Assembly (NCBI GenBank): GCA_023150835.1
Contig: JAKLKB010000124.1
Location: 1-27,325, forward strand
Length of the DNA stretch: 27,325 bases
Direction: 5' to 3'
Source: Myxococcota bacterium
GTDB lineage: Bacteria; Myxococcota_C; UBA6777
The notes beneath the pieces are model-generated. The model did not search any database, was not told the DNA's origin, and was given only the letters and a program-made list of their open reading frames with translations. Positions 7,346-24,600 of the stretch are shown in pieces. Within the stretch, counting starts at the first letter, position 1, and each line of letters starts with the position of its first letter. A program made the position numbers and the translations under genes.

Positions 7346-8021
7346 TCAAGAGTCCTCCCCAAGAGCACCATCCCATCCGAACAAACGCGCACACGCAAGG
7401 ATATGCTTCTTGGTCGTGTCTTTCGCTCTGGTTGTTTGAGTTGACTGAATCAACCCATCTAAAAATCGCTCCAAATAACCCTTCGGAGCAAGGGAAACCA
7501 ACGTATCCACCAGTGCGTGCAAACGAAGAGGCATCAAATCAAACCCACGCGCAGACCAATCTTCGACGACCGCCCGTTTTTCTTTTTCCTCGCCTTGAAA
7601 CGAAGCTCTTGGGCCTTCGACAAAAAGAAGAGCATCGAACGGTAACAGCGCGACCTTTTTGGCCGCGTGTTCCATGTCTGCTTTTGTGTAAACTTTGTCT
7701 TTTACTTCTATCGTATAAAGCAGAGATGTTCCATCATACACATCGATGTCACTGGTTTCTTTTGAAGAAGCACCACTTTGGTTTGTAGGATGTACTTGGA
7801 CAGAAAAACCTTCACCGTACAGCGGGGCGAGCATCGACATCAACGATCCCACAACCAAAACGCACGTCTCGCCCTGATGGGATTCTTATATGTTCCCCCA
7901 GAATTATTTCTGAGACCTCGTCTATAAAACGTGAAGAATATGCGTAAAAATCATCGCTTGCTTTTTCAAAAGCCTGTTCCAATATACCGCGAGCAAAACA
8001 GAAATCGACTTTTTGACTCAC
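7346..8021 (-). pseudogene. Type II restriction endonuclease remnant (frameshifted)
   Basis: Two overlapping minus-strand frames together make one nuclease-like protein of about 224 aa. The first starts at GTG 8021, behind GAGGGAAG, and stops at 7812. The second frame opens after a stop at 7886-7888 and runs to 7346. The frameshift must therefore lie between 7815 and 7885. The downstream part has D-I-D-V followed about 11 residues later by E-V-K, which fits a PD-(D/E)XK nuclease core. Only 3 bp separate its GTG from the methyltransferase stop, so the pair was translationally coupled. I could not assign a recognition specificity. A sequencing indel could mimic the frameshift, but the partner gene is broken independently. 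Confidence 0.65.
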
Positions 8022-8024
8022 GCT

Positions 8025-8754
8025 TTATGCTTCCCTCAAATGGATCCAGTCCAACAAAGGCATCTGGCTGCGAGAAAGAAGTTCTTCCGACGCGCTCTTT
8101 GTGAAGAGAGTGGGTGGTTGCGAGACTTGAAGCAAAGATCGCTTTAAGGCAAGTCCCACAGCTTTTGCAAGAAGCGGAGGAACCGCATTTCCGATCTGCC
8201 GATAGATAGAACTTTTCGCGCCCAAAAAACGGAAGGTATCGGGAAAAGACTGTATCCGTGCAGATTCTCGTGCGGTGAGCCGCCGAACACCTTCGACTTC
8301 ACCGACACGCGGCTGGCCTCCATCCATCAACGTAGTCCAAAGATTGAAACATACGAACGACGGAAGAAGTGTAGGTTTTGTGCTTTGTGGTTAACAAGCC
8401 CGGCACATTTTCCATCAAAAAGGACTTCGGGCGAGTCTCCCGCACAACCCGCACGAACGCAGGAACCATATCCCGAGGGTCGTTTTCGGCAAGCTGCTCA
8501 CCTGCGACGGAGAAAGGTTGACAGGGTGGCCCTCCCGCGACCAAATCGATCCCTTTGTAACCAGAAAAGCAGACCTCTCGAACATCTTTTTCAAGAAACA
8601 TCGTACTCGGAAAATTATGACGATACGTTGCGGACGCCGCTGCGTTTTGCTCGACCGCAAGCTCGACGTTCCAACCCGCCCAGTGCAATCCCAAAGATAA
8701 ACCACCCGCCCCACAGAAAAGATCGACGGCTTTGTATTCAGGTGACTGGCCCAT
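8025..8754 (-). pseudogene. DNA (cytosine-5) methyltransferase with internal deletion
   Basis: The start is ATG 8754 (MGQSPEY). Motif I (DLFCGAGGLSLGL), motif IV with the catalytic Cys (GGPPCQPFS) and motif VI (ENVPGLL) read in one frame down to FQSLDYV near 8325. The next recognisable motifs, IX (RRLTARESARIQSFPD) and X (IYRQIGNAVPP), are in another frame immediately after. In this family motif VIII (QxRxR) and the target-recognition domain normally lie between them, a span of over 100 residues, and these are absent. The gene is therefore a deletion plus frameshift remnant of about 243 codons. It should be catalytically dead and unable to protect DNA. It lies directly upstream of the equally broken nuclease. 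Confidence 0.85.
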
Positions 8755-9172
8755 CCGACTCCCACATTCGTTGCTGTTCCCAACCAAACCAGCGAAAAAA
8801 CGCAATCCTCGTGCATAACCGCCCCCTCCACCGAAGTCAAGCAGCCCCAAAGGTCCCCAAGAACACACAGACCCCACCTCGCAAAAGAACTCTCCATACA
8901 AAGCACAAGACAAACTCGCCCGTTGACAAGAGAGCGCCTTCGCGTTTAGCCAAGAGCCTCGCGAACTTGTCGATCCTTCGTTGAAAGCAGGACGGGTGTG
9001 GTATGTTGCCAAAAACCCCCGTGTTCGGGCCAATCCAAGCGGTGCCTCTGTTGGTTTGAAAAATATCCGTTCAGCCCGTCGATACGGGGTCAAGAGGGCT
9101 TCGCCCTCTCGCGGTGTGTGGGTTGGAGTCCCATACAAACCATCCAGCCAATCAGTCCTATAGGAGAAAAAC
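8755..9172. other. Intergenic region upstream of methyltransferase remnant and small membrane gene
   Basis: A stretch of about 420 bp between divergent genes. ORFs here are antisense extensions without family features. It holds one family I palindromic repeat (9084-9136), and the small membrane gene starts immediately after. No RNA gene was recognised. Confidence 0.5.
9084..9136 (+). repeat. Dispersed palindromic repeat, family I, copy 2
   Basis: The order is ACGGGGTCAAG, then a perfect 7-bp hairpin with loop TTC (9093-9109, agagggc/gccctct), then GCGGTGTGTGGGTTGGAGTCCCATAC. It has the same block order as 25328-25379. Confidence 0.65.
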
Positions 9173-9553
9173 ATGAGCGCTTTAAACAAGCGTAGCGGGC
9201 AATGGCTTATTGCGACAGGCATCTTGCACAACGCGGTGGGCGTGTGGATGGGTTTTGATGTCCTCAAAAAGATCGCATGGAGCGGCTTTTTCAATGCAGT
9301 AGATCCACACTTTGATCGGATGGCGATCTTTTGGTTTTTGTTTTCAGGCTTTGCGATCATGATGTGGGGGCAACTTTTGTTGTCGATGGCAACGATCCCA
9401 CGTGGGTTTGCGTGGTCTCTTCTGGCCTTGTCCCTTGTCGGGATCGTGATGATGCCTGCTTCGGGTTTTTGGTTGGTACTGCCCCAAGCCCTTTGGATGC
9501 TGCGTCAAACCGCCGAACCACCGCAACCACCGCGTCGAGAAGATGCAGCCTGA
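9173..9553 (+). CDS. Small four-helix membrane protein (DUF6463-like)
   Basis: This encodes 126 aa, starting behind AGGAG with a 5-6 nt spacer. It has four predicted hydrophobic helices (about residues 10-27, 46-66, 76-96 and 97-110) and a short polar tail rich in Pro/Arg. The opening pattern G-x-x-L-I-A-T-G-I-L-H-N-A-V-G resembles the DUF6463 group of small inner-membrane proteins of unknown function; the family name is from memory. There is no operon partner of known function. A gap of 135 bp without recognisable features separates it from glycogen phosphorylase. Confidence 0.75.
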   Translation: MSALNKRSGQWLIATGILHNAVGVWMGFDVLKKIAWSGFFNAVDPHFDRMAIFWFLFSGFAIMMWGQLLLSMATIPRGFAWSLLALSLVGIVMMPASGFWLVLPQALWMLRQTAEPPQPPRREDAA

Positions 9554-15510: not shown

Positions 15511-15540
15511 GGAGCATCGCGGACTCGAACCGCAACCCCA
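15511..15540 (-). tRNA. Orphan tRNA 3' half (T-arm and 3' acceptor strand)
   Basis: Read on the minus strand, T-stem TGCGG, loop TTCGAGT, T-stem CCGCG and acceptor strand ATGCTCC form a complete tRNA 3' end without encoded CCA. No matching 5' half follows it, unlike the two units upstream. The only complementary 5' strand nearby is GGAGCGT at 15618-15624, 5' of it. That segment is followed by a 6-bp hairpin (ccgtcc/ggacgg) rather than a normal D-arm, and no standard anticodon arm follows. It may be a degenerate third tRNA, a trans-acting half, or part of a larger structured RNA. Confidence 0.4.
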
Positions 15541-15597
15541 GCCGCGCCAAAACGCTTTCGCTCATGTACACGATCACACGTCTTGACGCAACCCAAG

Positions 15598-15721
15598 CCG
15601 TCCTGCCCTACGGACGGACGCTCCATGGAGTGGCCCAACACACCTACCCGTGGCGGCTGGGCCATCGTTCGCCACCGAAGCAACGAACTATGCCACCTCG
15701 TTCTATGTCCCGCCACATTCG
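15598..15721 (-). ncRNA. Structured RNA segment between tRNA halves
   Basis: This segment shows several strong inverted repeats. GTGGCGG (15710-15716) pairs with CCGCCAC (15650-15656). Inside lies a 9-bp hairpin with a TTCG-type loop (15667-15688). GGCCCA and TGGGCC (about 15632-15663) enclose the CCGCCAC strand, so the two helices would form a pseudoknot. A 6-bp hairpin follows at 15598-15617. It continues the trailer of the second permuted tRNA unit. No group I core, tmRNA tag or RNase P signature was found. Confidence 0.35.
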
Positions 15722-15821
15722 GAGCCGATCAGGTTAAAACAGGCTGCTCTACCGTTGAGCTACCTCCCCATAAAAAGGAGAGGACAGGATTTGAACCTGT
15801 AACCGCCTATTGGGTCGACTC
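15722..15821 (-). tRNA. Circularly permuted tRNA, unit 2 (3' half before 5' half)
   Basis: In transcript order (minus strand): anticodon-stem strand TAGGC (15809-15805), variable loop GGTT, T-arm ACAGG-TTCAAAT-CCTGT, acceptor strand CCTCTCC (15783-15777), a 7-nt linker, then acceptor strand GGGGAGG (15769-15763), TA, D-arm GCTC-AACGGTA-GAGC, A, and anticodon-stem strand GCCTG (15744-15740). The acceptor stem pairs 7/7 (one G.T) and the anticodon stem 5/5 (one G.T). The flanks pair over 7 bp (TCGGCTC 15728-15722 with GAGTCGA 15821-15815), leaving an internal loop TTTTAACCTGA / CCCAA from which the anticodon loop would be assembled. Depending on the join, TT(T)+(C)CCAA would give a Gly-type anticodon (TCC or CCC); this is a guess. 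The discriminator is T and no CCA is encoded. Confidence 0.6.
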
Positions 15822-15851
15822 TCGTTGATGCAGGACGGGTGGTCCTTCAGA

Positions 15852-16000
15852 TTGGGAGCAAGACTTTGAGTTTGACACCCCACGCCTGCCTCTATCCAGT
15901 TGGGCTACCCCGCCGTCGATGGCGGGGGTAGGATTCGAACCTACAACAACGACGCTTTTGGGTGCTTTCACTTCTATTTGAGTTTGAGTTTCGCTCCCAA
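15852..16000 (-). tRNA. Circularly permuted tRNA, unit 1 (3' half before 5' half)
   Basis: In transcript order (minus strand): T-arm GTAGG-TTCGAAT-CCTAC (15944-15928), acceptor strand CCCCGCC (15927-15921), a 6-nt linker ATCGAC, then acceptor strand GGCGGGG (15914-15908), TA, and a D-arm GCC..AACTGGATAGA..GGC. The acceptor stem is 7/7 Watson-Crick. Outer sequences pair: GGCGT with GCGTC, GGGTG (15880-15876) with CACCC (15964-15960), and leader TTGGGAGCGAAACT (16000-15987) with trailer AGTCTTGCTCCCAA (15865-15852), 13 of 14 positions. The anticodon is uncertain. A loop G-T-C-A-A-A-C at 15876-15870 would give Leu CAA with a long variable arm, but then several extra bases lie after the D-arm. 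There is no normal 5' half upstream; the neighbouring gene ends at 16048. Confidence 0.58.
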
Positions 16001-16008
16001 CGAAGAAT

Positions 16009-16047: not shown

Positions 16048-16779
16048 TCATCGGTGAATGTAGCCAAAGATCGCGGTACCGATTTTTTTGTCGTCGACGT
16101 CGGTTTGGTTGGCGCGTTCGCGGGCTTGCTTTGTGGCATCGATCAGCTTGTCGATACGGGCCAAGAGCTTGCGCTTGCTTGGTTCGGGCATCGCCGTCGA
16201 GGTTTTGCGTGTACGCCAGACCCCTGCGTTCAGATCTTTGGTGATGAGCTGCGTTTGGGCCGGATGTTCCTTGGTGGCGTCGTACAAAACGATCGGGATC
16301 TGCTCTTTCTTGGTGCGCACCGTTTCGATCTCTGGCGAGACATAATGACCACTTGCTTCGTCTTTGGTCCAAGGCGTATCGAGCGGAAGCGTTGGGAGCG
16401 CACCATAAAAAGCCCGCACGTGATGGAGTTCTTTTTCGATCGAAAGCAGCGTCGTCACAGGCACGCGCTCGACCAAGACCTCGCCATCCACCACCAGATC
16501 GGCAAAAGCTTTGGTGTTGGTGACATCTTTGGTGGCGATCAGATCCAACAGACGCACCGAAAGATCATCAAACGCCTTCGTATCATCCAGCAGTTCGCGC
16601 TGGATCTTTTTGTGTTCGGGCGGCAGCCTCTCGCCGTCATCCTCGAAAGCTTGGTATTCTCGGTTCAAACCGAAGTACAGGTCTGACTTTTGGATCCACT
16701 TGTACACCTCGGTCTGTTCTTGCTTTGAGCGTTTCTTAAAGTCCGCTTCGATCGCGACGATCTCGTGCTGTTTTGTCAT
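16048..16779 (-). CDS. DUF7873-like protein of unknown function
   Basis: This encodes 243 aa from MTKQHEIVAIE, with GGAGC about 10 nt upstream. It is soluble, with no signal peptide. Landmarks match, from memory, an uncharacterised family well known in actinobacteria (DUF7873): N-terminal I-V-A-x-E, then E-D-D-G-E-R-L-P-P-E, then T-K-D-x-x-N-T-K-A-x-A-D-x-V-V-D-G-E, P-V-T-x-L-L-x-x-E-K-x-L, K-E-H-P-A-Q, and the C-terminal R-A-N-Q-T-D-V-x-D-x-K-I-G-x-A-I-F-G-Y-I. Length is normal for the family and the C-terminus is intact. Function unknown. It is the last gene before the tRNA-half region, whose candidate promoter lies just behind its stop codon. The unusual phylum distribution suggests possible transfer. 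Confidence 0.8.
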   Translation of the reverse strand: MTKQHEIVAIEADFKKRSKQEQTEVYKWIQKSDLYFGLNREYQAFEDDGERLPPEHKKIQRELLDDTKAFDDLSVRLLDLIATKDVTNTKAFADLVVDGEVLVERVPVTTLLSIEKELHHVRAFYGALPTLPLDTPWTKDEASGHYVSPEIETVRTKKEQIPIVLYDATKEHPAQTQLITKDLNAGVWRTRKTSTAMPEPSKRKLLARIDKLIDATKQARERANQTDVDDKKIGTAIFGYIHR

Positions 16780-21673: not shown

Positions 21674-24600
21674 TTAGCGACCCGCAAACAGCGTGGGATT
21701 GGTTGCGTAGATCATGGCGACCTCGCGCTGGATCAAGTTGGTGTTGACAAGTTCGACAAGGGCTGCATCCATCGTGATCATGCCCATCGAGCGGGAGGCT
21801 TCCATGATCGACTTGAGTTGGTGGAGTTTGTCTTCGCGGATCAGGTTGCGTGCAGCGGGGGTGGCCACCAAGACCTCGAAGGCTGCGATGCGTCCGTTTT
21901 GTTCGCGGTTGGGCAACAATCGCTGCGAGATCACGGCGGTTAAGGCCGAGGAAAGCTGCGCTCGGATCTGTTCTTGTTGGTGTGCAGGGAACACGTCGAT
22001 GATCCGATCGATGGTCTGGATCGCATCGTTGGCGTGCAGGGTCGCAAGCACAAGGTGGCCGGTTTCTGCGGCAGTCAGCGCCGCGCTGATCGTGTCGAGG
22101 TCACGCATCTCCCCCACAAGGATCACGTCGGGATCTTGGCGCAAGATGTATTTGAGCGCGCTTGCAAAGCTCTTGGTGTCTGCAAAGATCTCGCGCTGAT
22201 CGACGGTTGCGGCTTTGCTCTCATGGGTGAACTCGATCGGATCTTCGATGGTCAGGATGCGGCATTGGCGATAGCGGTTGATGTGGTCGATCATACACGC
22301 CAAGGTCGTGGACTTCCCTGAGCCTGTCGGCCCGACCACTAACACCAAACCTTGCGGATACTGCGCTAGTTTCATCACGGTGTTTGGGATGCGGAGTTCT
22401 TTTGGGTCGGGGATGCGTGTCGGGATCGCACGCAAAGACATCGCCATCTTGCCTTTTTGAAAATACGCATTCACCCGAAAACGTCGGCTGTGATCCAAGG
22501 CCAACGCAAAGTCGATCTCTCGCTCAAGCTCGTAGATCGTGCGTTGACGCACGCTCAAGACCGAGTGCAACAAGATCCGCATATCGCCCTCTGTCAGGGG
22601 CGAGATCGGCAATGGCTCCAACACCCCGTTGATCCGCAAGATCGGTGGACGCCCCGATGTCAAGTGCAGATCCGAAGCTCCACGATCCATCACCACCCGC
22701 AACAGCGACTTGATATCCAATCCCCCCCCCGATGCTGCCGAAAACGCTTCGCGAAACGTCGCCACGCCCGTCTCCATCCCTTGCGCAGAAAGCGCAAACT
22801 CTTCGGGGTTCGTCGCGTAGGCTTTTCCGACCTCAAAGGTGATCTCGCCCTTGCGATACAACTCCAACAAAGAGCGATTGAAACTCAACAGGCCGGGATC
22901 ATTGGTGCTACGAAGCTGATCCGCCAACTCTTCGATCCGTTGCTCTCGCAACAACTGCGCAACAGCCGGCGTATTCGACAAGATCTCCACCGCCAAAGCC
23001 CGCGACATCCCATCATGCGTCGGGATCAACCGCTGCGAGATGATACCTCGCAACGACAACGACAGATCCATCGCGACTTGATGGCGCAGATGTTCGGGAT
23101 AATAACTCATGATCCGTTGCAGCGTCTGTACGGCGTCGATGGTGTGCAGCGTCGAAAACACCAGATGCCCCGTCAAGGCCGCTGACAAGGCTACAGACAT
23201 CGTCTCCATATCCCGCATCTCACCGATCATGATCACATCGGGACTTTCTCGAACAACGTGCCGCAGCGCCTGATGAAACGATTGTGTATCCGCCCCGACT
23301 TCCCGCTGTGTCATCCGCGACAAGATATCGTGATGCACAAACTCGATCGGCTCTTCGATTGTCACGATGTGCGCGTGTCGTGTTTCGTTGATCTGATGCA
23401 ACAACGCCGCCAGCGTCGTCGACTTCCCCGAACCTGTCGCCCCCGTCACCAACACCAAACCACGCTGCTGAGCACTAAACTCCCGCAACACCAACGGCAA
23501 CCCCAGATCGCGAAAAGACAACGCACCGCTCGGAATCGCCCGCACCACCGCCCCCAACAGTCCTCTCTGCCGATGCAGATTCAAGCGAAAACGATGCCCC
23601 CCCTCCAAAGCATACCCCACATCCAGATCTCCTTCCTCCTCAAAACGCCGTCTCATCGGCTCTTTCAGCAGCTTCGCAAAGAACCGCTCAAAGTCCGCGT
23701 GACTGACCTTCGGCAACCCCAACGACACCACACGCCCATTCACCCGTACCGCTGGCGGTTTGTCTTCGCTCAAGAACAAGTCCGACGCATGCCACGCCTC
23801 CATCCGCTCCATCAACGCCACCAAACCATCCCCATGCACCACACTCCTCCGCAGTTCATCGCTGATCTCTGGAGTGATCCGCGCCAAGATCTCTTCTTCC
23901 GAAACGATCGACACCACCGTCTGCCCGTCCTCTGGAGCTTCTTCGACCTTTGCCAAACCATCACCCGCCTCCGATGCCTTGACCGATCCGTGTCCTGCGT
24001 CAGAGGCTCTTCCGGCCCCATGCTCCGCCTCCAATCCCGAAACGCGCTCGATGGCGTGCGCATCCGTCGAAGCCGCCTCTTTTGCGTCGAGATTCAACAG
24101 CAGCGGATGAGCGTCTTTGGAAGGAGATCGCGACAAGTCGGGGCGTTTGGGAGCAGGTGGCTTGAACACCTCCAACGGATCAGACAGTTCCAACGTGTCG
24201 CTGCCTTCGGGCAAACGCTTCTGGGCTTGTTTGAGTAGCTCGTGCAAACGCACCGTCGCAGCACTCGGTGGCGCGATCTCCAACATCCCCACACACCACA
24301 ACGCCACCAGCCATTGCAACATGGTCTCGTCCAACTCTTCACTCGGAAAGGCTGCCCACGTCGCAAACCCCTGTAGCTGCTGCTCTGCCTTCCCACCCAA
24401 TGATCGGATCGCAGGGCCACTCTCCGGATGCAAACACACCTGCACCTCGCCTTTCCCCCAAGCCGCCTCCGCCAGTCGATGCACCAAGCCTTTGTCCGTC
24501 ATCGCCGCAAAGCCATAACGCATCAAAAAGATCGCTGGCATCTTCCCGGGCGACATCATCTTGAGCGAAGGCCGCTCTTCAGGCACAAACACAAAACAGC

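Follow-up and report, generated by a model that had tools for sequence, protein, structure and literature searches.

The 27,325-nucleotide contig JAKLKB010000124.1 of a Myxococcota bacterium (GTDB lineage Bacteria; Myxococcota_C; UBA6777; assembly GCA_023150835.1), referred to here in its full length as the window, carries a gene of the uncharacterised DUF7873 family (PF25283) and, downstream of it on that strand, two RNAs, unit 1 and unit 2, in which the parts of a tRNA are arranged in a permuted order. Unit 1 had previously been picked out from its letters as a possible circularly permuted tRNA gene (the original prediction); the second unit and the link to a protein gene were absent from that description.

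A DUF7873 gene and two permuted tRNA-like RNAs

The DUF7873 gene lies on the minus strand at 16048–16779 and encodes 243 amino acids starting MTKQHEIV (Pfam match of 273.7 bits, E = 2e-81). Unit 1, a permuted tRNA-like RNA set on a paired stem, occupies 15852–16001 (minus strand), as judged from a covariance model, its fold and its score against the Rfam family YrlA. Its T-arm (GTAGG-TTCGAAT-CCTAC, 15944–15928) is followed by the 3′ strand of an acceptor stem (CCCCGCC, 15927–15921), a linker of 6 nucleotides (nt) (ATCGAC, 15920–15915; ATCTAC in a genome of the same genus), the 5′ strand of the acceptor stem (GGCGGGG, 15914–15908) and, after the dinucleotide TA, a D-arm (GCC-CAACTGGATAGA-GGC, 15905–15888). 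The T-arm, linker and D-arm were identified both in the sequence and by a motif scan, the D-arm also in the fold, and all seven acceptor pairs are Watson–Crick. Every one of these elements had been named in the original prediction and was found as described, and there is no 5′ half above the T-arm, which lies about 100 nt past the DUF7873 stop at 16048. The flanks pair as had been proposed: GGCGT (15886–15882) forms an anticodon-stem-like pairing with GCGTC (15955–15951), GGGTG (15880–15876) pairs with CACCC (15964–15960), and the outer flanks form a long closing helix. Folding without constraints recovered the same elements at −55.0 kcal/mol (z −3.8), with none of 200 shuffles equally stable.

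Unit 2, at 15719–15826 on the minus strand, repeats this design about 140 nt downstream of unit 1 and is supported by a covariance model, its fold (z −2.7) and its YrlA score. Its T-arm (15800–15784) is followed by an acceptor stem formed between CCTCTCC (15783–15777) and GGGGAGG (15769–15763), with the 7-nt linker TTTTTAT between the two strands, and then by a D-arm (15760–15746). ARAGORN and Rfam at its curated thresholds gave no match in the whole window, and no complete tRNA lies close by.

When the thresholds were relaxed, YrlA (RF02553) emerged as the one Rfam family of relevance, with 35.9 bits for unit 2 over its full length (E = 4.7e-6) and 30.7 bits for unit 1 (E = 1.5e-4); neither attains the gathering score of 69 bits. 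Because the YrlA model also fires on the junctions of tandem conventional tRNAs these scores alone prove little, and for that reason separate covariance models, R1 and R2, were built with tandem-tRNA controls, using other genomes and phages and excluding the window. R2 gave 71.5 bits for unit 1 (E = 7.6e-24, at 15861–15971) against 46.7 for unit 2, and R1 gave 71.1 bits for unit 2 (E = 3.6e-24) against 44.2 for unit 1. The controls with tandem conventional tRNAs reached about 40 bits at most, and YrlA candidates adjacent to a gene for TROVE, the domain of Rsr/Ro60, reached 28–48. The window thus carries DUF7873, then an RNA of the unit 1 type, then one of the unit 2 type, all on one strand and in the order seen at other loci.

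The gene and its RNAs recur across phyla and phages

Among 60 searched genomes, DUF7873 was found only in that of the window (G000), in one of the same genus (G001) and in one of the same family (G003), the latter two carrying orthologues of the window's gene. In all three the gene is adjoined by two permuted units, which in G003 lie upstream of it. For a wider comparison we scanned the 160 best DUF7873 loci, taken from several bacterial phyla and from viral contigs (1.30 Mb, both strands), for a T-arm, an acceptor 3′ strand, a linker of 2–30 nt, an acceptor 5′ strand and a D-arm in that order, demanding at least six of the seven acceptor pairs. The stretches 0–900 bp downstream of the 160 genes, on the same strand, contained 240 permuted units where about 1.35 would be expected, and the motif was found only 23 times elsewhere in the same 1.30 Mb. 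At least one unit was present in 144 of the loci and at least two in 94; in the 92 two-unit loci, to which the counts out of 92 below refer, unit 1 and unit 2 are spaced by 139–191 nt. A survey of neighbours gave no other protein family that recurs widely beside DUF7873.

Relatives of DUF7873 occur in 73 phage records, including phages of Gordonia, Arthrobacter, Rhodococcus, Rhizobium, Vibrio and Klebsiella as well as cyanophages, and in four Streptomyces/Nonomuraea records. At least 560 DUF7873 loci were found in contigs of GTDB species and 340 in viral contigs; in the phylum of Nonomuraea endophytica the gene is present in six of 198 genomes, that of N. endophytica counted. In annotated phages, what usually comes after the DUF7873 gene is a gap of several hundred bases in which no protein gene is annotated, in many cases amid tRNA genes. 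The trio of gene and two RNAs is spread over Actinomycetota, Myxococcota, Acidobacteriota, Planctomycetota, Cyanobacteria and phages.

Two RNA types with covarying stems

The two units are distinct types. Those of the unit 1 type have A as the discriminator in 76/92 loci and D-arms such as GCC-CAACTGGNAGA-GGC or GCG-GAATTGGCAGA-CGC, and those of the unit 2 type have U or G as the discriminator in 85/92 and the D-arm GCTC-AATGGNA-GAGC. The acceptor stems vary in sequence between loci but stay paired. Since the scanner itself demanded six of seven acceptor pairs, independent evidence of covariation was sought in the outer helix (columns 9–13 with 116–121 of alignment A5), which played no part in selecting the units: changes on both sides were found at all five pairs. 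For the whole structure the covariation score was 0.766, compared with 0.233 for shuffled and at most 0.144 for slid alignments. At homologous loci, then, where the original prediction could have failed, the permuted architecture is both conserved and covarying.

The basal stems contain conserved internal loops, GGAGCGcAAGCUGA / CUCAGACUCUCGCUCC in unit 1 and AUCGACC / UUAAACG in unit 2, and in Actinomycetota unit 2 folds into a long rod that is built of several covarying helices and also has conserved internal loops. The window carries UCAAACUCAAAGUCUUGCUCCC where unit 1 of Actinomycetota has the conserved GGAGCGcAAGCUGA ... CUCAGACUCUCGCUCC flank, and the internal loops of its unit 2 read UCGACC ... 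UUUUAAC. A short frame of Lys-Leu repeats in the 5′ flank of unit 1 was considered as coding sequence and rejected: AGR is the only codon type at its ‘Arg’ positions, GC-rich genomes included, and there is a shift of 1 nt at one locus, and by eye an RNA motif is the better reading.

The DUF7873 protein

The confident AlphaFold2 model of DUF7873 (pLDDT 93.8, pTM 0.71) comprises long helices and a long β-hairpin, and in this model the conserved T..HPAQ motif (residues 169–175) sits at the turn of the hairpin. A fold search of the PDB gave nothing at E < 0.001. The best structural match was 3kdq (Z 9.6, 147 residues aligned, root-mean-square deviation 7.4, 17% identity), a Corynebacterium diphtheriae protein of unknown function whose kinship to DUF7873 is unproven; there was also one marginal viral match. 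A profile search of PDB sequences and scans of PHROG and NCBIfam produced nothing convincing, and a search of the available literature collection gave no paper on the family.

A probable Y-RNA-like pair with DUF7873 as partner

YrlA RNAs, partners of Rsr/Ro60 in RYPER, have a stem bound by Rsr/Ro60 and, on it, a tRNA-like domain that comprises D, T and acceptor arms and binds PNPase; this modular plan of bacterial Y RNAs (PMC8394870) is the same as that of the DUF7873-linked units. The two share the permuted module of T-arm, acceptor, short linker and D-arm, a long stem closed by the ends of the RNA, internal loops and a frequent tandem arrangement. They differ in that the window units fall below the YrlA cut-off, in that DUF7873 takes the place of TROVE as the linked gene, and in that the DUF7873-linked RNAs are of two distinct types in a fixed order, with a linker that often encodes N73-CCA.

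It would seem probable that the locus encodes a pair of tRNA mimics that resemble Y RNAs, do not depend on Ro60 and have DUF7873 as their partner. The cassette has one DUF7873 gene and, after it on the same strand, two non-coding RNAs that are structured and belong to one family, presumably transcribed together with the gene. In each RNA the permuted T-arm, acceptor stem and D-arm stack on a helix of 5 bp that resembles an anticodon stem, and this in turn on a long basal stem. By analogy with the Y RNAs, the basal stem may be the protein-binding handle, for DUF7873 in place of Ro60/Rsr, and the tRNA-like head may recruit or compete for proteins that recognise tRNA; the RNAs may also undergo processing and modification of the tRNA type. 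Their role in the cell could lie in RNA quality control, or they could act as tRNA decoys in stress or phage infection. Most probably the two RNAs act in the manner of paired Y RNAs, but with another protein as their partner. The structures of the RNAs, their two types in fixed order, the linkage to DUF7873 and the spread over phyla and phages are firmly established; binding and function are hypotheses.

Several points weigh against this explanation. The scanner found no unit in 16 of the 160 DUF7873 loci, some of which are contig ends. With an isoelectric point (pI) of 6.4 and a family median of 6.3, DUF7873 is near-neutral to acidic, and fold searches with its model gave no match to a known RNA-binding fold; because of this pI, binding of RNA by DUF7873 is suggested by the linkage and not by the protein itself. 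The genome is 93% complete, so that a TROVE gene may have been missed, and TROVE is found above the cut-off elsewhere in 27 of 40 DUF7873 genomes, and in none of the rest. In those 27 genomes, because TROVE is present, binding of the RNAs by Rsr in trans would be possible.

Possible processing of the linker

It is possible, though we put this forward tentatively and as the lesser chance, that the linker is cut out by RNase P and 3′-end enzymes to leave a nicked, paired, CCA-ended RNA that could be aminoacylated. Such an RNA would resemble two-piece tmRNA minus the tag frame or an anticodon, and would be compatible with a Y-RNA-like pair partnered by DUF7873. The linker starts with N73 followed by CCA at positions 2–4 in 21/92 of unit 1 and 38/92 of unit 2, where about 1.4 would be expected at random, and the acceptor 5′ strand is directly preceded by U in 70/92 of unit 2; the discriminator preferences of the two types given above also speak for this. 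There is a precedent in the permuted precursor of two-piece tmRNA, for which processing by RNase P and tRNase Z has been proposed (PMC3985003), and by analogy tRNA-processing enzymes may act on the linker in at least some members. On the other hand, the window linkers ATCGAC and TTTTTAT contain no CCA, many other linkers are longer and CCA-less, no tag frame was established, and some of the CCA may derive from ancestral tRNAs. The units have in common with two-piece tmRNA the permuted acceptor domain and a linker that enzymes of tRNA processing may excise, but they are much shorter, keep a full D-arm and have no link to SmpB. The window units gave no match to tmRNA, which is found separately in some DUF7873 loci.

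One could go further and suppose that DUF7873 and twin RNAs of two types, nicked when RNase P trims the permuted transcripts and ending in CCA, form a dedicated adaptor ribonucleoprotein in which the RNAs are aminoacylated or bound to the translation machinery but cannot decode. We regard this as unlikely; if true, the adaptor would be widespread and non-coding, would be common to phages and bacteria, and would depend on none of Ro60, tmRNA and SmpB.

Other explanations of the units

That the units are ordinary YrlA Y RNAs, bound by an Rsr/Ro60 protein whose gene escaped the search or lies elsewhere, is improbable. YrlA is indeed their best Rfam match, the genome G043 has a comparable tandem pair upstream of TROVE, and TROVE occurs somewhere in the 27 genomes mentioned above. 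However, no TROVE match was found in the five family genomes (G000–G004, which include that of the window), the YrlA gathering score was reached in 0/33 of the DUF7873 loci scanned, and the RNAs track DUF7873, the TROVE genes being located elsewhere in those genomes. Tested for the features that define plain YrlA, the units were found to be wrongly filed there. Sub-threshold YrlA-like RNAs adjoin TROVE in two genomes, with 35.5 and 29.2 bits at L061 (G043 C47) and 39.5 bits at L063 (G008 C15), which suggests that divergent YrlA RNAs can fall below the Rfam threshold. At L271 (G060 C148) three long tRNA-like matches of 117–127 nt lie upstream of a TROVE gene.

There is a similarly slight chance that DUF7873 itself is under the control of the RNAs, which might, for instance, neutralise a toxic protein in the style of a type III toxin–antitoxin system. 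A compact, mobile cassette of protein and RNA, present in phages and bacteria and with no other conserved neighbour, would fit this, but the RNAs lie downstream of the gene, they are two distinct tRNA mimics and not repeats of one short RNA, and nothing indicates that DUF7873 is toxic.

The original prediction, that of a genuine circularly permuted tRNA gene whose product is joined at the anticodon and serves in decoding, is very unlikely to hold for these units: their permuted architecture is real, but joining into a working tRNA finds no support. The order of the parts, 3′ half, intervening sequence and 5′ half, and the pairing of leader and trailer are those of the permuted tRNA genes of algae and Thermofilum pendens. 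A 5-bp anticodon-stem-like helix is present well above expectation, in 64/92 of unit 2 (11 expected) and 35/92 of unit 1 (10 expected), and the genome has an RtcB ligase. In algae and one archaeon, however, permuted tRNAs need bulge-helix-bulge motifs and the tRNA-splicing endonuclease (PMC3978253). Strict bulge-helix-bulge motifs were found in 7/92 and 10/91 cases against 7.6 and 6.5 when the flanks were dealt anew, with none in the window, and the endonuclease (PF01974) was not found in the 93% complete genome. Where the anticodon loop would be, the helix runs through an open internal loop into the long conserved stem, there is no 7-nt anticodon loop, and U33 is not conserved (18/64 unit 2 sequences). 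Nor did a search for a missing isoacceptor favour a decoding role, as the conventional tRNA set of the genome covers all 20 amino acids. A further difference from permuted tRNA genes is the large number of loci with a fixed protein neighbour. Because there is no excess of bulge-helix-bulge motifs, no PF01974 match and no conserved U33, and the conventional tRNA set is complete, the units are mimics of the upper part of a tRNA without its decoding end. On its defining features, which were tested, the label of a bacterial permuted tRNA gene is wrong for them. Permuted tRNA genes had been taken as not known from bacteria; bacterial RNAs with such a tRNA-like domain are already known in YrlA (RF02553; PMC8394870).

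Chance or debris, with the halves of adjacent degenerate tRNA genes happening to pair through their acceptor strands, was suggested by the matches of the YrlA model to tandem-tRNA junctions and can be dismissed, being refuted by the conservation of 240 units against about 1.35 expected, by the strong covariation and by the lack of a complete tRNA close by in the window.

Other features of the window and genome

Downstream of unit 2, at 15511–15624 on the minus strand, lies a third element with a tRNA-like fold in the normal order (acceptor GGAGCGT...ATGCTCC, D-arm and T-arm; fold z −5.4), in which a very long stem replaces the anticodon arm. It is almost identical in G001, was not seen in G003 and has no Rfam match. 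It was rejected as a general part of the cassette, as other DUF7873 loci show no T-arm at a fixed offset past unit 2, and its membership of the window's own cassette is uncertain. Stable hairpins at 15625–15720 (minus strand), between unit 2 and this element, are near-identical in G001.

Elsewhere in the genome of the window, L273 (C201:23864–23974 and 24042–24149) and L275 (C193:28636–28752) are tRNA-like genes of normal order that have, instead of an anticodon loop, a conserved insert of about 45–50 nt with the core TTGTACAANNCACCACAGCAA. There are three copies of this type in G000, three in G001 and four matches in G003, and ARAGORN did not recognise them. At L287 (C34:13900–15700) the genome has a tRNA array, with Leu tRNAs (gag, tag) lacking long variable arms and an odd Gly-gcc, that looks unlike the rest of its tRNA set. 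In the window, at 7346–9360 on the minus strand, a fragment of a SacI-type restriction endonuclease adjoins a C5 cytosine methylase with an early frame end, possibly a decayed restriction-modification pair.

Implications

Bacterial Y RNAs with a tRNA-like head have been known as partners of Ro60/Rsr; the RNAs described here appear to be a second, independent lineage, usually of two RNA types, that travels with the uncharacterised DUF7873 family and gives this family a likely RNA partner. The cassette accounts for gaps in the annotation that recur in phage genomes, several hundred bases long and in many cases next to tRNA arrays, and offers a testable case of tRNA mimicry as one tool common to phages and their hosts. 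It also serves as a warning that tRNA mimics probably underlie calls of permuted tRNAs in bacteria. What lies in the window looks like an overlooked, widespread RNA-protein system and not a tRNA gene that needs re-joining.
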